From contig JACPYM010000085.1 in NCBI GenBank assembly GCA_016196035.1, positions 1 to 64,000 on the forward strand: a stretch of DNA of 64,000 nucleotides, given 5' to 3'. This document shows, piece by piece, positions 22,992 through 41,301 of the stretch. Every line of letters starts with the position of its first letter. The first letter of the stretch is position 1. This DNA comes from Acidobacteriota bacterium (lineage in GTDB: Bacteria; Acidobacteriota; Blastocatellia; RBC074). Made by a program: the position numbers and the translations under genes. Under the pieces are notes generated by a model. That model searched no databases. It was not told the DNA's origin and saw only the letters and a list, made by a program, of their open reading frames with translations.

Positions 22992-23124
22992 ATTTCATTG
23001 CCTCAGTTGAGCAACCGCGAAGCAAGTAATGCTACGAGCGGGCCTTACCTGTTGTAGAATCTGAGGCGAGCCAGACTCGAAAATGCCACGTTGGCAAATC
23101 AAGCTGACGGCGGAGATGACAGCA

Positions 23125-23499
23125 ATGAATGAACAAGTCACCTTACAGGTACCTGATTACATTTTGCAGCAAGCGGCACAACTCGCCGCGCAAACCAACC
23201 TGAAAGTCGAAAGTTTTTTGGCTGATGTATTGGTGTCGGCGTTAGGTGAGCGTCCAGTGACGGCATTGGCTGACGCTGAAGTCTTGGCCTTGACCGAATC
23301 GCGCTTGCCCCAAACACAGGAAGAACGCCTCAAAGATTTGCTGGCCGACCATTGCGAAGGCTTGCTCGATCAAAACCAGCAAAAGGAACTCGACCAGTTA
23401 ATGAATATCTATGAACGCGCCCTGCTGCGCCAATCCCAGGCTTTGCGTGAAGCAGTTGCGCGCGGATTGATGAAGCCACTCAGCCATGAGCAGAACTAA
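23125..23499 (+). CDS. Conserved hypothetical protein paired with HNH nuclease
   Basis: The 124-residue protein starts MNEQVTLQVPDYILQQAAQL and is wholly helical, with a ribbon-helix-helix-like opening (VTLQVPDYILQQAAQLA) that suggests DNA binding. Its later part is a charged coiled helix ending MKPLSHEQN. GGAG lies 9 bases before the ATG at 23125; starts at 23083 or 23116 are possible. It overlaps the HNH gene by 14 bases. I recall this pair as recurrent in cyanobacteria and acidobacteria, resembling an antitoxin-toxin layout, but this is not proven. Confidence 0.7.
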   Translation: MNEQVTLQVPDYILQQAAQLAAQTNLKVESFLADVLVSALGERPVTALADAEVLALTESRLPQTQEERLKDLLADHCEGLLDQNQQKELDQLMNIYERALLRQSQALREAVARGLMKPLSHEQN

Positions 23500-23914
23500 G
23501 GTTGCGGAGCCAATCAAACAGCGTGTGCGCCAAGCCGCAGGCAATCGCTGTGGCTTTTGTTTGGGTGAACAGCGCCGCATCCTGGGCATCCTTGAAATCG
23601 AACATATCATTCCTTTGGCGCGCGGCGGCACAGATGAAGAATCGAACCTCTGGCTTTCATGCAGCCTTTGTAATTGCTACAAATGGACACAAACTACTGC
23701 GCTTGATCCTGAAACTTTTGCAGTTGCTCCAATATTCAACCCACGAGAACAGGCTTGGGCTGAGCATTTTTGCTGGGATGAATCCGGTGCCAACATACTT
23801 GGGCTTACGCCGATTGGGCGCGCCACGGTCAATACCTTACGACTCAATAACCCGATTGCAGTGGAAGTAAGAAAAGGTTGGGTAGAAGCGGGATGGCATC
23901 CGCCAAAGCTTTGA
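23486..23914 (+). CDS. HNH endonuclease
   Basis: The 142-residue protein has an HNH domain in its first half: CGFCLGEQRR (zinc CxxC), LEIEHIIPLARGG with the catalytic His, and SNLWLSCSLCNCYK with the second CxxC and Asn. The second half (FNPREQAWAEHFCWDESG, GRATVNTLRLNN) is conserved in this subfamily. It should be a nicking or double-strand DNase. It overlaps the upstream small helical protein gene by 14 bases, and its position after an orphan methyltransferase may be chance. Confidence 0.88.
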   Translation: MSRTKVAEPIKQRVRQAAGNRCGFCLGEQRRILGILEIEHIIPLARGGTDEESNLWLSCSLCNCYKWTQTTALDPETFAVAPIFNPREQAWAEHFCWDESGANILGLTPIGRATVNTLRLNNPIAVEVRKGWVEAGWHPPKL

Positions 23915-23939
23915 TCCCCCTGCAAGACAAGCATTGTTT

Positions 23940-25058
23940 ATGTCGTCACTCACCAAAATCCCGGCAGGCGTCCAATACTTCTTTGACGAAGAGGTGAAGC
24001 TGCGCCGCCATGTCGAACGCCAGGCGATGGCCGTGTTCGCGGGCTGGTCGTATGACGAGATCATCCTGCCGATGTTCGATTATCACGATCTGTTTGCGCG
24101 CGGGATGGGCGCCGAAATCGCCGAGCGCACGTACCGCTTCACCGACCGCGATGGCGCGTTGCTGGCGCTCAGGCCCGAACTGACGTCGCTGGTCGCGCGC
24201 ACAGTGGCGACGCGGTTCAAAGCCAAGCCGCGCCCGTTGCGCCTGTGCTATTCGGGCGAAGTGTTCCGCTACGACGAACCGAGCGAGCGGGCGGCGCGTG
24301 AGTTCCATCAAGTCGGCGTCGAACATATCGGCGAACCGAACATCGTGGCAGACGTAGAAGTCCTGCTCGTTGCGGCAGAGTTGCTGAGCACGCTGGGGCT
24401 GAACGGCTTCCGCATTGCGCTCTCGCACGCGGATTTTTTCAACGGCGTGAGCGGCTATCTGGAGCTCGAAGCCGCGCAGCGCGCCGAGTTGCGCCGCCTG
24501 ATTGATCGCCGCAATAGCCAAGCTCTCGACACCTTTTTGCAACAGCACGCGCCCAGTGTTGAAGCCACGCGCCGCGCCGGATTCTGCCGCCTGACGCAAC
24601 TCGCGGGTGGCGAAGAAGTCTTGGCGCAAGCCGAACAGGTCTTGCGCAACAAACGTTCGCTGGCGGCGATTGCGCATCTGAGAGCGGTTTACACCACGCT
24701 CGCGGCGCTGGGTTTGGCCGAACATTTTGACGTAGATTTCGGCGACACAGGCGGGCAGGAGTATTACACCGGGCTGCTGTTCAAGGCTTACGTGCCTGAA
24801 TGGAATGTGGCCGTCGGTACGGGCGGGCGCTACGATAAATTGATTGAAAACTTCGGCGCGGCGGAACCGGCGGTCGGCTTTTCCTTCGCACTCGATGCAC
24901 TGGCTGGAGCGTTGTCAAAACACGCGCCGAACGGCCAGATGGATACGACGGCGCTGGTGCAAAGCATCAATTTCAACGGCGATTTGGCCGCGACGTTCAC
25001 GCGCGCGCGCACCTGCCGCCAAGCTCATCAACAGGTAAAGATCAGTGCCCAGCAATAA
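23940..25058 (+). CDS. hisZ: ATP phosphoribosyltransferase regulatory subunit
   Basis: The 372-residue protein is a class II aminoacyl-tRNA-synthetase-like paralogue of HisRS lacking the tRNA-binding part. Seen: IPAGVQYFFDEEVKLRR, TYRFTDRDGALLALRPELT (motif 2-like), YSGEVFRYDEPS and VAVGTGGRYDKLIENFG. HisZ is needed for activity of the short HisG form, which is indeed encoded next, overlapping by 14 bases. The ATG at 23940 (MSSLT) is preferred over a TTG 6 bases upstream. It opens the histidine cluster. Confidence 0.93.
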   Translation: MSSLTKIPAGVQYFFDEEVKLRRHVERQAMAVFAGWSYDEIILPMFDYHDLFARGMGAEIAERTYRFTDRDGALLALRPELTSLVARTVATRFKAKPRPLRLCYSGEVFRYDEPSERAAREFHQVGVEHIGEPNIVADVEVLLVAAELLSTLGLNGFRIALSHADFFNGVSGYLELEAAQRAELRRLIDRRNSQALDTFLQQHAPSVEATRRAGFCRLTQLAGGEEVLAQAEQVLRNKRSLAAIAHLRAVYTTLAALGLAEHFDVDFGDTGGQEYYTGLLFKAYVPEWNVAVGTGGRYDKLIENFGAAEPAVGFSFALDALAGALSKHAPNGQMDTTALVQSINFNGDLAATFTRARTCRQAHQQVKISAQQ

Positions 25059-25689
25059 AGCCCAACTCACTATCGCGCTGGCCAAAGGCCGCATGCAGGA
25101 AGACGCGCTCGCCCTGTTTGCCCGTGCGGGCATCATCGTGGACGAGAGCGAACTCAAATCGCGCCGCCTCGTCATTCATTCGACCGACCGGCGTTTCAGC
25201 TTCGTGCTGGTCAAGCCGAGCGACGTGCCGACGTATGTGGAATACGGCGTCGCCGACGCGGGCGTCTGCGGGCGCGACGTGCTGATCGAAGCGCGCTCTG
25301 ACGTACACGAACCGCTGGATTTGAAATTCGGGTACTGCCGCATCGCCGTCGCGGGCAAACGCGAAGCCGTCAACGAAGATTACAACCTGCTCGCCACCGT
25401 GCGCGTCGCGACCAAATACCCGCGCATCACGACCGCCTACTTCCAAGCCAAAGGCGTGCCCATCGAAATCATCCCGCTGCAAGGCTCGGTCGAACTCGCC
25501 CCGCTGCTCGGCCTTTCCGACCGCATCGTAGACTTGGTCGAAACCGGGCGCACGCTGAAAGAAAATGGCTTGGAAGTGATCGAAACCATCACCGACACCA
25601 CGGCGCGGCTGATCGTGAATCGGGCGAGCTTTCATTTGAAGCGGGCAGCGGTGAGTGCGTTGATTGAGGATTTGGCGAAGGTTCTTTGA
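25045..25689 (+). CDS. hisG: ATP phosphoribosyltransferase, short form
   Basis: The 214-residue protein catalyses the first step of histidine synthesis, joining ATP and PRPP. It starts at GTG (25045), inside the end of hisZ. Family marks are LTIALAKGRMQEDAL, YVEYGVADAGVCGRDVL and DRIVDLVETGRTLKENGL (PRPP loop region). It lacks the C-terminal allosteric domain of long HisG, as expected with HisZ present. Its last 69 bases have a second copy at 26588-26655, beyond the inserted protease/DUF5678 pair. Confidence 0.95.
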   Translation: MPSNKAQLTIALAKGRMQEDALALFARAGIIVDESELKSRRLVIHSTDRRFSFVLVKPSDVPTYVEYGVADAGVCGRDVLIEARSDVHEPLDLKFGYCRIAVAGKREAVNEDYNLLATVRVATKYPRITTAYFQAKGVPIEIIPLQGSVELAPLLGLSDRIVDLVETGRTLKENGLEVIETITDTTARLIVNRASFHLKRAAVSALIEDLAKVL

Positions 25690-25692
25690 ATT

Positions 25693-26136
25693 TTAGAACG
25701 GCAACTGTGTAACGTAAGTATGTGGTGCAGCCAGGAGCAAGACTTCCCGTTTGGGGTAACTGTAGATTACGTCGAAATTGTTGGTCACTTCCCGGCCAAG
25801 AATGGAAATGTCGCTACTTTCTGCTTCCGTGAAAACAGCGAATGGGCCATTCACAGTTACGCGTCCGCCATCATCACGGGTAAAGCCCAAGCGCGTATCC
25901 GCCAGTGTTATTCCCACCAATCCGCCTACACCGCCTACGCGGGGCATCTCTGATTCGGGAACAACCAGCGGTGTCAGCAATGGCAACAACCGCGCTTCAA
26001 GCACTGTGCGATCCGCTCCTCCGTCAAGCTGAAAGGTAACGGCTTTCCACTCGCCAGTCGCAGTCAACACATGCGCTTCGATAATGGGGCGCATGATTTC
26101 ATCCGGGAATTCACGCCAGCGGCCTTTAACAAGCAT
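25693..26136 (-). CDS. Retropepsin-like aspartic protease
   Basis: The 147-residue protein resembles the clan AA single-domain aspartic proteases of bacteria. The flap-side motif is seen as TFQLDGGADRTVLEARLLP (the usual D-S/T-G-A is here DGGA) and the end block as ISILGREVTNNFDVIYSYPK followed by EVLLLA. A dimer would form the active site. The open frame reaches 26310, but the upstream part covers the partner gene, so ATG 26136 is chosen. It overlaps the DUF5678-like gene by 11 bases and lies opposite to the his genes. Function in the cell unknown; DGG instead of DSG or DTG may weaken activity. Confidence 0.7.
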   Translation of the reverse strand: MLVKGRWREFPDEIMRPIIEAHVLTATGEWKAVTFQLDGGADRTVLEARLLPLLTPLVVPESEMPRVGGVGGLVGITLADTRLGFTRDDGGRVTVNGPFAVFTEAESSDISILGREVTNNFDVIYSYPKREVLLLAAPHTYVTQLPF

Positions 26137-26413
26137 AAATGCGCTCGCACTTGATTTTCGGAATGTAGATGACGAACGGCGTATCGCTTGGGTGTTTTTC
26201 TCGCGCGAGACGTTCTGCTTCTTGCGCATCAGGTGAAACAAAAGTTTCGCCTTCCGAAACCGCCACGAATTGACCGAGATACTGATCGTAAAACGGCTTG
26301 CCGTGTTCACTCATCCATTCGCTGTTGCGGCGATATAAGTCGAGGGTGCGGCGGAGTTCCGGGTCTTCAGGCTCAAGGATAAGGGGAAGTTTATAGTCCA
26401 ACACGACAGTCAT
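26126..26413 (-). CDS. DUF5678-like small protein
   Basis: The 95-residue protein has a helical N-terminus (PEDPELRRTLDLYRRNSEWM) and a core YLGQFVAVSEGETFVSPDA followed by EAERLAREKHPSDTPFVIYI. The core resembles DUF5678, a short beta-alpha domain often found as the first gene before a retropepsin-like protease. The pair is translated on the minus strand, overlapping by 11 bases. Together they behave like a two-gene accessory cassette inserted between hisG and the next his genes. Confidence 0.7.
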   Translation of the reverse strand: MTVVLDYKLPLILEPEDPELRRTLDLYRRNSEWMSEHGKPFYDQYLGQFVAVSEGETFVSPDAQEAERLAREKHPSDTPFVIYIPKIKCERIYAC

Positions 26414-26587
26414 AAATTTGTCACCTCGCTTTGCAAATCAGAATGGGCAGCTTATGCCGCCGACAAGGGTTCGTTTTGCTTGGCACCACCTACGACGCAT
26501 TCGCGCTTTCAGTAGTTCGTGGGCAATATAGGAACAGATAGTTTTTTTGGCAACAGTCTTTTTGAGTCTCAAAGCCGCCTTGTCTAT

Positions 26588-26674
26588 GATCGTGAATTGA
26601 GCGAGCTTTATTTGAAACGAGTGGCGGTAAGTGCGTTGATTGAGGATTTGGCGAACTCGCTAACGGAAGTATAA
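26588..26674 (+). pseudogene. Displaced second copy of the hisG 3' end
   Basis: Positions 26588-26655 match hisG 25611-25679 at about 61 of 69 positions with one deleted base; most differences are C-T or G-A. In frame it reads LKRVAVSALIEDLANSLTEV and a stop, against LKRAAVSALIEDLAKVL and a stop in HisG. Changes are mostly silent or conservative, so the copy has been under coding constraint at some time. No start or upstream part of hisG remains. Confidence 0.85.
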
Positions 26675-26680
26675 ATCGAG

Positions 26681-27154
26681 ATGACTCTTTCCGAATTACA
26701 AAGCGATTTAAATCAGTTGCTGCATCAACCAGTTTCTTTCAAACGAATTGCTGGCAATAGCATCATCATTTACTTTTTTGACGAACCAGGCGATAGCAAC
26801 GTGGTCAGCATCTTCACCCATACCAGTTGGCGCTATCAAAAAGATGGCAAGGTGGTAATCGGTAGCTATGATCTTCTGATTGACGAGGATGATTTCAATT
26901 CTGTAGAAGAGTACGAACAAAGGTTCGACTACTTGTGCTCCCTCACAGACGAGCTTTCTAACGCCGACCTTTTGGCCTGTTTCATTGACCCTGAATCATC
27001 CGACCTCACTCTAAAATTTAGTAACGAACAGGTTATACACATCTTCGCCAACAGCGCGTTCGATAATATAGCGTGGACATATCGGAACATCCCACAGCAA
27101 ATCTGCGCAAACGTCTCACCATCTGGCGTAGAGATTAAAACAATAGATAAATAG
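26681..27154 (+). CDS. Hypothetical protein inside the his cluster
   Basis: The 157-residue acidic protein starts MTLSELQSDLNQLLHQP and shows alternating beta strands (SIIIYFFDEPGDSNVVSIFT, WRYQKDGKVVIGSYDLLIDE) and a repeat-like second half (DLTLKFSNEQVIHIFANSA). The two halves look like a duplicated beta domain, similar to small immunity-type proteins, but I do not recognise it. It is more AT-rich than hisD, whose start lies 2 bases after its stop, so the two are probably co-translated. Confidence 0.6.
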   Translation: MTLSELQSDLNQLLHQPVSFKRIAGNSIIIYFFDEPGDSNVVSIFTHTSWRYQKDGKVVIGSYDLLIDEDDFNSVEEYEQRFDYLCSLTDELSNADLLACFIDPESSDLTLKFSNEQVIHIFANSAFDNIAWTYRNIPQQICANVSPSGVEIKTIDK

Positions 27155-27156
27155 CA

Positions 27157-28452
27157 ATGATCGAACTCATCAAACTCAATTCATCTGATACCGACAACGC
27201 CAAGCTCCAACGCATTCTCAACCGCACCAACGGCCTCAACGCCGAAATTCTGGCGCGGGCGGAAAGCATCCTGCACGAAATCCAAACGCGCGGTGATGCG
27301 GCGTTGCTTGAATTCACCGAACGTTTCGACGGCGTTAAACTCACGCCCGCAACCTTGCGCGTGCCCCGTGAAGTCATCGAAGAACTCGCCGCCCAAGTAG
27401 ACGACGAACTCATCGCCGCCATGCGCGCTGCGATTCACAACATCCGCACCTATCACCAACACCAACTCACCCGTGATTGGGAAATCGAAGGCGAGAACGG
27501 CGTGCGACTGGGCCAGCGCGTCAGCCCGCTGCAAATTGTCGGCTTGTACGTGCCCGGCGGCACGGCGGCTTATCCTTCGACCGTAATGATGAACGCGATT
27601 CCGGCGCAGGTCGCGGGCGTGCCGCGCATCGTCATCGTCACGCCGCCGGGCCAGTTCAAACAAAACCCGCTCATCGCGGCCACGCTGAAAGAGTTGGGAC
27701 TGTTTGAGGTATACACCATCGGCGGCGCACAGGCCGTCGCCGCGCTCGCCTTTGGCACCGCAACGATTCCGCGCGTAGACAAGATCGTCGGCCCCGGCAA
27801 CCAGTACGTCGCGGCGGCCAAGAAGCTGGTTTACGGCGCGGTGGACATTGATTCCATCGCCGGGCCTTCGGAAATCATCGTGGTCGCCGACGACACCGCA
27901 CGCCCCGATTTCGTCGCGGCTGATTTGCTCTCGCAGGCCGAACATTCCGAAGACGCGGCTGCCATTCTGATCACGCCGAGCGAGACGCTGGCTTTGACAG
28001 TGAAAGAAGAACTCGCCCGGCAAACGGCTACGTTGTCGCGCAAAGCGATCATTGAACGCTCGTTGGCCGATTTCGGCGCGCTGATCGTCGTCGAAAACAT
28101 TGACGCCGCTTGCGCCCTGTGCAGCCGCCTCGCCCCCGAACACGCCGAAGTTATCACGGCGGATTGCGAAGCCGACGCGCTCAAGATTCACAACGCGGGT
28201 GCGATTTTTATCGGCGCTTACTCACCCGAACCCGTCGGCGATTATTTCGCCGGAACGAATCACGTGCTGCCGACGGGCGGGACGGCGCGTTTCTCTTCGG
28301 CGTTGGGCGTGTATGACTTTTTGAAAAAGACGAGCATCGTGCGCTATACGCGGGAAGAGTTGATGCAGACGGCAGGGATGATCGAACGGTTGGCGTTGGC
28401 GGAAGGATTTGACGCGCACGCGCGCTCCGCTACGCTGCGAATTGATAGTTGA
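27157..28452 (+). CDS. hisD: Histidinol dehydrogenase
   Basis: The 431-residue enzyme performs the last two oxidations of histidine synthesis (histidinol to histidine, NAD+, zinc). Seen: GLYVPGGTAAYPSTVMMNA, GGAQAVAALAFGT, DSIAGPSEIIVVADD, LLSQAEHSEDAAAILIT and GTNHVLPTGGTARFSSALGV. The C-terminal LRIDS and the stop are written by the start of the TTGATAGTTG repeat that introduces the next cassette, so the native end may have been replaced. Confidence 0.95.
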   Translation: MIELIKLNSSDTDNAKLQRILNRTNGLNAEILARAESILHEIQTRGDAALLEFTERFDGVKLTPATLRVPREVIEELAAQVDDELIAAMRAAIHNIRTYHQHQLTRDWEIEGENGVRLGQRVSPLQIVGLYVPGGTAAYPSTVMMNAIPAQVAGVPRIVIVTPPGQFKQNPLIAATLKELGLFEVYTIGGAQAVAALAFGTATIPRVDKIVGPGNQYVAAAKKLVYGAVDIDSIAGPSEIIVVADDTARPDFVAADLLSQAEHSEDAAAILITPSETLALTVKEELARQTATLSRKAIIERSLADFGALIVVENIDAACALCSRLAPEHAEVITADCEADALKIHNAGAIFIGAYSPEPVGDYFAGTNHVLPTGGTARFSSALGVYDFLKKTSIVRYTREELMQTAGMIERLALAEGFDAHARSATLRIDS

Positions 28453-28474
28453 CAGTTGGTAATTGATAGTTGGG
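28440..28474. repeat. TTGATAGTTG repeat, left flank of the four-helix gene
   Basis: AATTGATAGTTGACAGTTGG and TAATTGATAGTTGG form two close tandem units. They overlap the last codons of hisD. The inverse (CAACTATCAA) lies on the other side of the four-helix-bundle gene at 28842-28875. Confidence 0.7.
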
Positions 28475-28480
28475 GTTCGT

Positions 28481-28834
28481 ATGGCAGAAAGTCTAGTAAA
28501 AGATACGTCGTATAAATTTGCGGTCAGGGTAGTACGGCTGTACAAGTATCTGACCGAAGAGAAGCGGGAGTTTATCCTCAGCAAGCAGTTACTTCGCTCG
28601 GGCACTTCGATTGGGGCGAATGTCAAAGAGGCCACGCAAGCTGAGTCGCGGGCTGACTTCATTCACAAAATGGCGATTGCGTTGAAAGAAGCTTCCGAGA
28701 CTGAGTATTGGCTGGAACTGCTGAAAGAAACCGAATATCTCGACGAGGCCGGGTTTAATTCGATTTATGCTGATTGCCAGGAACTGCTCAAGCTACTCAC
28801 CGCAATCATCAAATCCTCCAAGCAAAATTCATGA
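28481..28834 (+). CDS. Four-helix-bundle protein (S23 / IVP type)
   Basis: The 117-residue protein matches the family first found in 23S rRNA intervening sequences: DTSYKFAVRVVRLYKYL, LSKQLLRSGTSIGANVKEA and FIHKMAIALKEASETEYWLE. It forms pentameric or similar helical barrels with positively charged surfaces; a nucleic-acid role is suspected. ATG at 28481 is preferred over 28463, which lies in repeat DNA. It is flanked by inverted repeats and its stop overlaps the hisC ATG (ATGA), so the cassette seems fitted into the his operon. Confidence 0.88.
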   Translation: MAESLVKDTSYKFAVRVVRLYKYLTEEKREFILSKQLLRSGTSIGANVKEATQAESRADFIHKMAIALKEASETEYWLELLKETEYLDEAGFNSIYADCQELLKLLTAIIKSSKQNS

Positions 28835-29925
28835 CCGAAAAAACGATCAACGATCAACTATCAACGATCAACTGCATTAAGCCGCACGTTCGCGCGATCA
28901 AAGCCTACACGCTCGCGTCCCTCGAAGCGCCGATCAAGATCAACCAAAACGAAAATCCATTCGGGATGCCCGCTGCCATCAAAGACGAAGTCTTGCGCCG
29001 TGCCGCCGCCCACGATTGGGCGCGCTATCCTGAATTTGTCCCGACGGCGTTGCTGGAAAAGCTGGCGGCTTACACTGGCTGGCGCGCGGACGGCATTATG
29101 GCGGGCAACGGCTCGAATGAGATGATTCAATCGGTCGTCAATGCGGTCGTCGAAAAAGGCGTGCTCACCGTGCTGCCCGAACCGACGTTTTCGGTTTATC
29201 GCCAAGTCATAACTGTTGCGGGCGGCGAAATCGCTTCGGTCTTGTTGAAGGAAGACCTAACTTTTGACGTGCCGCGCTTGAAAGCCGAAATCCTTGAACG
29301 CAAGGCTGCGCTGGCGATCATCTGTTCGCCCAACAATCCGACGGGTTGCACGATCAGCCGCGCCGAGTTGGTGGATTTGCTGACCAGCACCGACGCCTTG
29401 ATTGTCGTAGACCAAGCCTATCTGGAAATCGGCGGCGAGAATTTCGTGCCGCTGCTCAACGAACATCCCAATCTCGTCATCCTGCGCACGTTTTCCAAAG
29501 CGATGGCGATGGGCGGCTTGCGCGTGGGCTATTGTCTGGCCGCGCCCGAACTCATCACCGAATTCAACAAGGCCAAGATGCCATATAGTTTGAATTATTT
29601 TTCGATGACAGCGGCGGAAGTGGCGCTGGACAAGCAAAAGTTGTTGCAACCGCTGGTCGCCGCCATACAAAGCGAGCGCGAGCGGCTGTTTGCTGAGTTG
29701 GGCAAGATTGAGGGGCTGGAACCTGTGCCTTCGGCGGCGAATTTTTTTGCGGTCAAAACCCGCGTCACGCCAAAAGAATTGTTCACGCAATTGCACGCAA
29801 GTGGCATTTTGATTCGCGATGTAAGCAGTGCGCCAATGCTGAAAGATTACGTGCGCATTAGTGTGGGGACACCGGAAGAAAACGATGCCTTGCTCAAAGC
29901 GTTGAAAGAGCTTTTTGTGGAATGA
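28831..29925 (+). CDS. hisC: Histidinol-phosphate aminotransferase
   Basis: The 364-residue PLP enzyme of fold type I has IKINQNENPFGMP, GNGSNEMIQSVVNAV, CSPNNPTGCTISR, VVDQAYLEIGG and LRTFSKAMAMGGLRVGY with the Schiff-base Lys. The first dozen residues (TEKTINDQLSTINCIKPH) are partly encoded by the CAACTATCAA repeat, so the N-terminus was added or altered by the repeat. The start at 28831 shares bases with the stop of the four-helix gene. Confidence 0.94.
   Translation: MTEKTINDQLSTINCIKPHVRAIKAYTLASLEAPIKINQNENPFGMPAAIKDEVLRRAAAHDWARYPEFVPTALLEKLAAYTGWRADGIMAGNGSNEMIQSVVNAVVEKGVLTVLPEPTFSVYRQVITVAGGEIASVLLKEDLTFDVPRLKAEILERKAALAIICSPNNPTGCTISRAELVDLLTSTDALIVVDQAYLEIGGENFVPLLNEHPNLVILRTFSKAMAMGGLRVGYCLAAPELITEFNKAKMPYSLNYFSMTAAEVALDKQKLLQPLVAAIQSERERLFAELGKIEGLEPVPSAANFFAVKTRVTPKELFTQLHASGILIRDVSSAPMLKDYVRISVGTPEENDALLKALKELFVE
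28842..28875. repeat. CAACTATCAA repeat, right flank of the four-helix gene
   Basis: AACGATCAACGATCAACTA and TCAACGATCAACTGC form tandem CGATCAA units and the inverse of the left-flank TTGATAGTTG. The repeat lies inside the 5' end of hisC and encodes NDQLSTINC. Confidence 0.7.
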
Positions 29926-29929
29926 GTAT

Positions 29930-30211
29930 ATGTTCGAGGACATCCTCAAGCTGATGTGCGAATATATCCGCGATGATTGCGCGGAATTAACACGCCACGC
30001 TTACGACGAAATGAACGATGATGACTTGTTTGTCTTCGACTTGGAGCAATGCATCCTGACTGGTAGCATTGTTAAGCGCCAGTGGGACGATGATTTTCAG
30101 GATTGGAAATACGTGATTCATGGCCTGAGCGCCGATGGCGAACAGATCGCTACGATCGCCAAGCTGGCAGAGCAACAAAAGGTCGTTTTCATTACCACCT
30201 TTCGTCTATGA
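29930..30211 (+). CDS. DUF4258 protein, likely toxin of a toxin-antitoxin pair
   Basis: The 93-residue protein starts MFEDILKLMCEYIRDD and has the DUF4258 pattern LTRHAYDEMNDDDL, DLEQCILTGSIVKR, KYVIHGLSADGEQIATIAKL and VVFITTF. The domain is related to RelE/MqsR-type RNases. Its start (29930) is 4 bases after the hisC stop, and its stop overlaps the start of the YgiT-type gene (ATGA). The toxin role is inferred from this pairing. Confidence 0.8.
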   Translation: MFEDILKLMCEYIRDDCAELTRHAYDEMNDDDLFVFDLEQCILTGSIVKRQWDDDFQDWKYVIHGLSADGEQIATIAKLAEQQKVVFITTFRL

Positions 30212-39304: not shown

Positions 39305-39416
39305 CGCACCCTGGGTACGCACCGCTTCCAGCGTGCAGTCTCAGCAACCTATTCTTTCAGGCCGGTAGCCCTGACTTGACGCCTGCACGCTGGAAGCGGT
39401 GCGTACCCAGGGTGCG
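39305..39416. repeat. MITE-like inverted repeat, family A (copy 1)
   Basis: Perfect 34-bp arms (39305-39338 and 39383-39416; CCTGGGTACGCACCGCTTCC and on) enclose 44 bases. The right arm ends 2 bases before the stop codon of the CRTAC1-like gene. The inner 40 bases resemble those of copy 2 at 41167. Confidence 0.9.
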
Positions 39417-39417
39417 G

Positions 39418-41301
39418 CTACTTCTCAATCACCTTAACCACGCGATTCGCGGCTACCTTCGTCAGCTTCTCGACCTTACCGTTCGGCCAACGCACGACAA
39501 TCTCATCAATCACATTCGCTTTCCCCAAGCCGAAATGCAGCCGCCAATCCGAATGTGAAAGATAACTGTCGCCCGCGCGCACTTCGTCCACTTGCGTCAG
39601 GCCGCCCGCTTTGACTTCGACACGCGCGCCGACAGCATTGCGATTGGATTTCGTGCCGGTCAATTTCAGCTTCAACCAATGCCCGGTCTGTGCGCCATTC
39701 GTTTCGACAAAATCGTTGCGCAACAGCATCGGCGGGCCGTCCAGATCGTTGACCAAAATATCTATGTCGCCGTCTTCATCGTAATCGCCAAAGGCCGCGC
39801 CGCGCGACGCCCGCCGCTCTTGCAAGGCAGCGCCAACTTCATTCGAGGCATCGGCGAAGGTGCCGTTGCGCAAATTGCGATAGAACAGCTTGCGTTGGCG
39901 GTATTGTCCACCTGGATACGCGCCTTCGATCTGCGGATAAACGTGGCCGTTGACGACCAACAAATCGAGCCAGCCATCGAGGTCGGCGTCAAAAAACTTC
40001 ACGCCCCAACCGACGTAAGGCAAGCTGACTTCCGCCGTCTTGCTCACGCGCGACACATCGCTAAACGCACCATCGGCCTGTTTGTGATAGAGCGTGTTGT
40101 ACTGTTCGGCAAAGTTGGTCACGAACAAATCCAGCCGCCCGTCGCGGTCATAATCGCCAATTGAAATGCCCATACTGCCCTGCTCCACGCCGTTGTCATC
40201 CACCGCCACACCGAGGGCCAAACCCATTTCAGTGAAGGTGCCGTTGTGATTGTTGCGATAGGCATAATTAGGCGTCGCGTCATTCGCCACGTAAATATCC
40301 GGCCAGCCGTCGTCATCGAAATCCGTCCACACCACACCCAAGCCGTAATAGCCATTCGCGTCTTCAACCTTCGCGGCCTTGCTCACATCAGTGAACGTCC
40401 CATCACCATTGTTGCGATAGAGTGCATCGCCCGCGCCCGGCAAGCCGCGCGGCCCGCATTGCACGGCGATGTTGCGAAAGCGGCACAACTCGCCCTTGCC
40501 GAATTGCGGCAGGTCAGTCAGTTTGAAGTCCACATAATTCGCCACGAACAAATCAAGGTCGCCATCGCGGTCGTAATCGCCCCACGCCGCGCCGGTCGAA
40601 AAACGCGCATCGCCCACGCCCGCCTTGGCCGTCACGTCTTCAAACTTGCCGTTGCCCAAATTGCGATAGAGCTTGTTCGGCCCGAAGCAGGTGACATACA
40701 AATCGTCAAAGCCATCGTTGTCATAATCGGCCACGCTCACACCCATCGCCCAACCGGGATCAGCGACGCCCGCTTTGACGGCGACGTCTTCAAACTTGCC
40801 ATTGCCCAGATTGCGGTACAGCGCGGCAGGTGGACGCGGCTTGTTGGCTAAGGCGGCTTCGACGGAATAGGAGTTGGTCAGGTAAAGATCGAGTTTGCCG
40901 TCGCCGTCATAATCAAACATCGCCGCACCGCCGCCCATGCTTTCGACGATGTATTTCTTTTCAGACGCGGCAGCGTTGATAAACGCAATCCCGGCGGATT
41001 TGGTCACGTCAGAGAAGTGAATGGGAGCAACCGCTGGCGAATCGGCGTTTCCTTGCGCTGACCAGTTGAAAAATGCTGGGGTAAGACAGGCAAGGCTGAG
41101 CAGCAACAGCAAGCACGTTCTGAATAGCCAAACCGCGCTGGTCGGAAGTTGAGGTGCAGCGGCAGTCTGGGTACGCACCGCTTCCAGCGTGCGGACTTGG
41201 CAGACCAATCTTTTCAGCCAGTGGCTCCGACCTGACGCCTGCACGCTGGAAGCGGTGCGTACCCAGGGTTGCCCGCTTGCTTTCTTACATTCGCACTTCA
41301 T
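39418..41301 (-). CDS. CRTAC1-like FG-GAP protein with ASPIC/UnbV domain
   Basis: The 627-residue frame holds seven calcium-binding FG-GAP/VCBS motifs of the type D-x-D-x-D-G-x-x-D ([42 protein letters not shown] and so on), forming a beta-propeller. An ASPIC/UnbV C-terminal domain follows ([31 protein letters not shown]). It should be exported and bind Ca2+. Its ATG overlaps the leuS stop (ATGA). Codons about 12-46 are the read-through of a family A inverted repeat, placed before the signal-like helix [19 protein letters not shown]. So the start is uncertain: the repeat may have added an N-terminal tail that spoils export. Confidence 0.88.
41167..41266. repeat. MITE-like inverted repeat, family A (copy 2), inside a gene
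   Basis: Perfect 26-bp arms (41167-41192 and 41241-41266; CTGGGTACGCACCGCTTCCA and on). The element lies in frame within the 5' part of the CRTAC1-like gene. With copy 1 it brackets that gene. Confidence 0.9.

Follow-up and report, generated by a model that had tools for sequence, protein, structure and literature searches.

Integrase elements such as e14 at icd replace the 3' end of the gene at which they insert: the gene stays whole with its end exchanged, and the cargo and then the old 3' end follow it. For R-M genes, insertion with long target duplication has reportedly been described by Nobusato et al. in 2000 and by Furuta et al. in 2010. As set out in three papers, R-M genes insert in this process without a recombinase and with a direct target duplication of about 100 bp and of variable length (PMC1643837, PMC3031569, PMC3874152). 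Homology-facilitated illegitimate recombination joins DNA through one homologous and one illegitimate end, the latter with little or no sequence identity (PMC3240628). It has served as a model for how T6SS effector-immunity modules stack up, each new module being followed by the 3' ends that it displaced (PMC5361080). Rfam additionally holds RNA families associated with DUF3800 genes, including DUF3800-I and DUF3800-IX (PMC11701678). Little is known of the way in which small defence or toxin-antitoxin modules that have no recombinase get into chromosomes.

The locus described here lies in the his operon within the window (the whole analysed stretch of 64,000 nucleotides), where a retropepsin/DUF5678 cassette separates intact hisG from a second, decayed copy of its 3' end (Table 1). 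The order of intact gene, cargo and gene-end fragment is that of e14-type elements; unlike in those, no integrase and no common target were found. The locus also resembles insertion with long target duplication: the candidate addiction-type cassette has no recombinase, the direct duplication is long and variable (70 bp at hisG, 34–269 bp at the other loci), and a mutase locus of the same genome carries a type II R-M system. Of the loci found in this genome, it is the only one with R-M cargo, and the cassettes, including the retropepsin/DUF5678 pair of the window, otherwise hold mostly toxin-antitoxin, retropepsin or DUF3800 genes. In contrast to that published description, the duplications were at gene ends, and the two copies looked less like duplicates of a single target than like alleles from two strains. 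T6SS stacking displaces a toxin gene, whereas here the housekeeping gene is whole and nothing but a fragment is left over; the synonymous bias described below indirectly supports homology-facilitated illegitimate recombination, with a putative junction at about 26586/26587 deduced from the sequence. The sequence-only reading had proposed that the mechanism may be new for such small cassettes. This was not upheld, as the arrangement recurs at R-M and toxin-antitoxin modules and matches the published insertion with long target duplication. What is added to the known pattern is its recurrence within one genome, cargo that goes beyond R-M genes to include toxin-antitoxin modules and unknown pairs, and the synonymous bias.

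The duplicated hisG end and its surroundings

Table 1. Features of the hisG–hisD region of the window and duplicated gene ends at other loci.
Feature	Position	Strand	Details
hisG, intact	25045..25689	+	short C-terminus LIEDLAKVL; HisG Pfam E = 5e-56; family orthologues 72–79% identical
Gene-end copy 1, within intact hisG	25610..25679	+	alignment with copy 2
Retropepsin-like gene	25693..26310	-	true start probably inside ORF; RVP match below Pfam cut-off; three paralogues in genome
DUF5678 gene	26126..26413	-	Pfam DUF5678, above cut-off
Orphan copy of conserved ~35-nt RNA	26484..26518	-	U-run lost; elsewhere convergent with DUF3800 genes
Promoter-like TTGCCA-N17-TATATT ahead of orphan RNA	26525..26553	-	10/12 consensus positions; placement as in other loci
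Gene-end copy 2, decayed hisG 3' end	26587..26655	+	TGA at 26598; 1-base deletion; last frame runs to TAA at 26672-26674
157-aa gene, accessory	26681..27154	+	no Pfam match; in 2/38 genomes, own included
hisD	27157..28452	+	Histidinol_dh Pfam E = 1e-163
Methylmalonyl-CoA mutase 3' end	C15:111552-113777 (L086)		83 bp, 93%; insert: C5 methyltransferase + BsuBI/PstI-type endonuclease
S9 peptidase 3' end			131 bp, 92%; insert: Gp49-like protein + HTH protein
PSCyt/DUF1585 gene 3' end			269 bp, 89%; insert: BrnT + BrnA
DUF1295 gene 3' end			48 bp, 85%; insert: PIN-domain protein + small partner without Pfam match
Histidine kinase 3' end	C117:65875-70850 (L182)		183 bp, 95%; insert of 4.6 kb: IS630-like remnant + two genes (216 and 695 aa, no Pfam match)
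WD40 gene 3' end	outside surveyed part		52 bp, 88%; insert: broken retropepsin paralogue
uvrD start copy	G001 (same genus)		34 bp, 91%; DUF3800 gene between copy and uvrD

The sequence-only reading placed a repeat of the last 69 bases of hisG at 26588-26655, with about 61 matches. Alignment confirmed it with slightly wider limits, 62 of 70 aligned columns being identical, with seven substitutions and one 1-base deletion. The repeat was recovered in a whole-genome search with E = 4e-18, and its local score of 96 compared with a mean of 17.8 and a maximum of 28 in 300 dinucleotide shuffles, which ruled out a chance or low-complexity match. The sole further match in the 9.6 Mb genome comprised 29 bases on contig C15 (E = 9e-4). 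Copy 2 had also been described as coding-compatible and ending in a stop. Read in the hisG frame, it has TGA at 26598-26600 where hisG has CGG, and the 1-base deletion follows nine bases later; only past the deletion does it continue in the hisG frame (YLKRVAVSALIEDLANSLTEV) to its TAA, so that the description held for this last part and failed before it. The TAA is followed by a 6-base spacer, the 157-aa gene and hisD. Because the TGA and the deletion give way to a frame that ends six bases before the 157-aa gene, copy 2 is, judged by its sequence, a hisG end of ordinary appearance apart from its decay, and it has retained its operon connection. The C-terminus of intact hisG is shorter than those of relatives, and the one read from the remnant is of usual length.

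The cassette was found as it had been read, with both genes on the minus strand; the DUF5678 match (27 bits, E = 4e-6) exceeded the Pfam cut-off and the retropepsin RVP match did not (17.3 bits vs. a cut-off of 20.7). The reported lack of an integrase was likewise borne out by a Pfam search of the cassette, and no integrase gene was found beside the presumed attachment site at hisG. The pair had no match in PADLOC or NCBIfam, and our literature search found no relevant paper on it.

The sequence-only reading had proposed a comparison with cassette-less relatives. All eight family relatives having hisG carried a single hisG end without a copy; the sole same-genus genome, G001 (73% complete), gave no hisG match. 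The hisG–hisD distance was at most about 130 bp in six of the eight. In G004, about 360 bp of non-coding DNA without a copy separated the two genes, and in G006 the junction was occupied by a DUF3800 gene together with a motif of 36 bases (L006:2127-3085), again without hisG duplication. The G006 insert was missing from the genus mates G008 and G009 and is therefore probably recent. Together with the 157-aa gene, which is rare (one other genome among 37), it indicates by sequence comparison that the hisG–hisD junction has received accessory genes more than once, at least twice. A copy without a cassette, or a cassette without duplication, had been named as contrary cases; the former occurred in 0/8 relatives. 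G006 has a different cassette without hisG duplication, which shows that insertions at this junction are not always marked by a visible duplication. The proposal of an insertion bringing a replacement 3' end was retained in part: the cassette does lie between two hisG ends and the relatives are single-ended, but the second copy is a decayed remnant.

Recurrence at other gene ends and codon differences

A survey was made of 2.76 Mb of the 9.6 Mb genome, plus one retropepsin locus outside the surveyed part, for direct repeats of 30–400 bp separated by 0.2–7 kb, where a long gene contained one copy and no matching long frame contained the other. Besides hisG, six more duplicated gene 3' ends flanking inserts were found (48–269 bp, 85–95% identical). 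Seven such scars thus occur in one genome, all clear cases at gene 3' ends and none judged genuine within a gene, as expected if survival is limited to insertions that leave the gene whole. Other repeats from the survey (WD40, Rhs-like, FG-GAP-like, and window 39311/41167) were set aside as gene-internal or dispersed. The uvrD gene of this genome has no DUF3800 insert like that of G001. Candidate duplications around DUF3800 genes in other phyla (L052, L053, L063) were discarded, since they had the look of dispersed or intergenic repeats and not of gene ends.

The cargo of the seven compact cassettes (six in this genome, one in G001) comprised one R-M system, three toxin-antitoxin-like modules, one DUF3800 gene and two retropepsin loci. 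The compact cassettes tested yielded no integrase, and the cassettes were not seen to share inverted repeats or a transposase. The BsuBI/PstI-type endonuclease had no full-length relative in nine related genomes and a partial match in G001. The sequence-only reading had proposed looking in other genomes for protease/DUF5678 cassettes beside duplicated gene ends. Within this genome the WD40 locus agrees with what that check would predict, and two of the four retropepsin loci are flanked in this way. Since the cassettes in this kind of scar are mostly R-M or toxin-antitoxin-like, guilt by association suggests that retropepsin/DUF5678 may be an addiction-type pair. No papers on such scars around toxin-antitoxin genes were found in the literature searched, which excluded most subscription journals.

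Differing codons between the copies were counted as synonymous vs. non-synonymous. The count was 3:2 at hisG, too few for a test with power alone, 6:0 at the mutase, 5:5 at the S9 peptidase, 14:12 at PSCyt, 2:0 plus a whole-codon insertion at the histidine kinase, and 3:0 at uvrD; WD40 (0:5) and DUF1295 (1:5) had no synonymous bias. The pooled ratio was 34:29, against about 27% synonymous changes expected from neutral decay (p = 5e-6). A mixed model of fragment decay and constrained gene change expects about 40% synonymous changes, and gave p = 0.017 for the pooled counts and 0.044 for this genome alone; the 40% is our own approximation, and the pooled result against it is moderate. In a dead copy of resident DNA, mainly amino-acid changes are expected. 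Because the differences were biased to synonymous changes, the copies had probably diverged as working alleles before they were joined, and at least for the mutase, uvrD and kinase the counts suggest that this divergence took place in different strains. A gene-end remnant combined with synonymous bias is a signature for which any genome can be screened.

Origin of the arrangement

We consider it likely, with a probability of roughly 60%, that the window is the product of recombination between two his-operon variants, in which the cassette and a gene end were brought jointly by a diverged donor. One variant would have consisted of hisG, the retropepsin/DUF5678 pair and the orphan RNA gene, and the other of hisG, the 157-aa gene and hisD. 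One exchange would have occurred within homologous DNA, and the other end would have been joined illegitimately, at about 26586/26587, inside the hisG 3' end of the other variant. One hisG end would have been kept intact, while the other became a remnant that subsequently decayed. Selection would retain only products with a whole host gene, and for that reason duplications would be seen at gene ends and not within genes; the cassettes would need no recombinase of their own. A circle carrying the cassette and gene end, integrated by one crossover, could have given the same product. We infer the donor, the one-sided homologous recombination and the order of events from the shuffle score, the single end in eight relatives, and the same architecture at six more genes and at uvrD of G001. 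The synonymous bias, the usual-length remnant C-terminus with its 6-base spacer and the lack of an integrase lend further support, homology-facilitated illegitimate recombination (PMC3240628) and T6SS module stacking (PMC5361080) are precedents, and the pattern suggests that such cassettes arrive attached to a stretch of host gene end, without needing an integrase. The WD40 and DUF1295 copies without synonymous bias and the G006 insert without duplication count against it. The family relatives and the one same-genus genome, itself without a hisG match, that the comparison reached revealed neither a donor nor an empty site at strain level.

The same anatomy would also result if a transposition-like or replicative process had copied 35–270 bp of resident target at insertion, both copies deriving from one chromosome and diverging later; this is the sense in which insertion with long target duplication was originally meant. 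We regard this as possible but rather doubtful. It matches the anatomy published for R-M genes (PMC1643837, PMC3031569, PMC3874152), an R-M case is present in this genome, and most differences between the WD40 copies and between the DUF1295 copies are non-synonymous. However, the purely synonymous differences at the mutase, uvrD and kinase, with the whole-codon insertion in the latter, are hard to obtain by decay of a dead copy, as the pooled test also indicates, and target copying finds no counterpart in shared inverted repeats or a transposase. An assembly artefact joining two strains' versions in one contig appears improbable: the genome is a draft of 139 contigs and the copies do differ like strain alleles, but the remnant, with its stop and frameshift, is no living allele, the pattern is found at seven loci of one assembly and with similar cargo in that of G001, and the stated contamination is 0.18%. 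Least credible is the remnant of an integrase element with a replacement end, as for e14, whose integrase was lost or acted in trans. Its replacement 3' end and displaced fragment would look alike, yet the compact cassettes tested were devoid of integrases, repeat lengths range from 48 to 269 bp, and the host genes (hisG, mutase, S9 peptidase, PSCyt, DUF1295, WD40, kinase) are unrelated, so each would require its own lost integrase. Site-specific integration was rejected on the same grounds of missing integrase and unrelated targets.

Small addiction-type modules, retropepsin/DUF5678 and DUF3800 with its convergent RNA included, might be integrase-free mobile units that spread between strains. 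A conserved gene's 3' end would serve as homology arm, entry would proceed via host recombination and leave the target gene whole, and the same direct repeats could allow re-mobilisation. This generalisation is speculative, and we hold it to be unlikely on present data.

The orphan RNA and other accessory elements of the operon

The motif in the cassette (26484-26518) is present in other phyla. Among 20 distinct other genomes, 16 have a DUF3800 gene whose end lies 5–43 bases before the motif; truncated or partial DUF3800 similarity lies near the motif in L053, L057 and L062. At most loci, a promoter of the TTGACA-N17-TATAAT type stands on the opposite strand, a few bases ahead of GAACCACUGAAAG...CGAAU...CGUAGGUGGUG, and a U-run comes after this sequence in most cases. 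The predicted fold has two stems around a 4x4 internal loop. Both sides of three base pairs have changed among variants from a phage record and from viral contigs. Pairing is kept in 97% of pair cells when the minus strand is read, vs. 83% for the plus strand; all but one variant were found by fixed patterns, which limits their diversity. With its own sigma-70-type promoter, hairpin and U-run end, and its convergence with DUF3800 in many phyla, the ~35-nt RNA is a candidate RNA gene. Like the Rfam DUF3800 RNAs it is a structured RNA adjoining DUF3800 genes; unlike those, it is matched by no Rfam 15 model, neither in the window copy nor in the DUF3800-linked loci tested. Its loci are window 26484-26553 (minus strand), L006, L046-L065, L222, L226 and L227. 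RNAs with variant stems were found on the viral contigs L221, L224, L225 and L228, on L050 and in phage record MT839113.1 (L223), where tblastn with the DUF3800 set used recognised no DUF3800 gene.

The window copy has kept its promoter and pairing and lost its U-run, and this genome has no DUF3800 gene. We take this copy, from its sequence, as a putative leftover of a DUF3800 cassette at the hisG–hisD junction, of the type still present in G006. A DUF3800 pseudogene inside the cassette was rejected, tblastn having given no convincing coding remnant (best E about 0.05). The motif (26484-26519) was also dismissed as an attachment site or dispersed repeat, being single-copy in the genome.

Small accessory genes occur at several junctions of this his operon (window 23083-30211): DUF7674-like and HNH genes precede hisZ, a four-helix-bundle (S23) gene follows hisD, a DUF4258 gene follows hisC, and the 157-aa gene is a further example. 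At the operon's remaining small inserts, no convincing duplicated ends of other his genes were found. Elsewhere in the window, a 104-bp repeat (86.5%) at 39311-39413 and 41167-41269 flanks a 627-aa gene; it has internal inverted symmetry (GGGTACGCACCGCTTCCAGCGTGC) and is probably a dispersed palindromic element.
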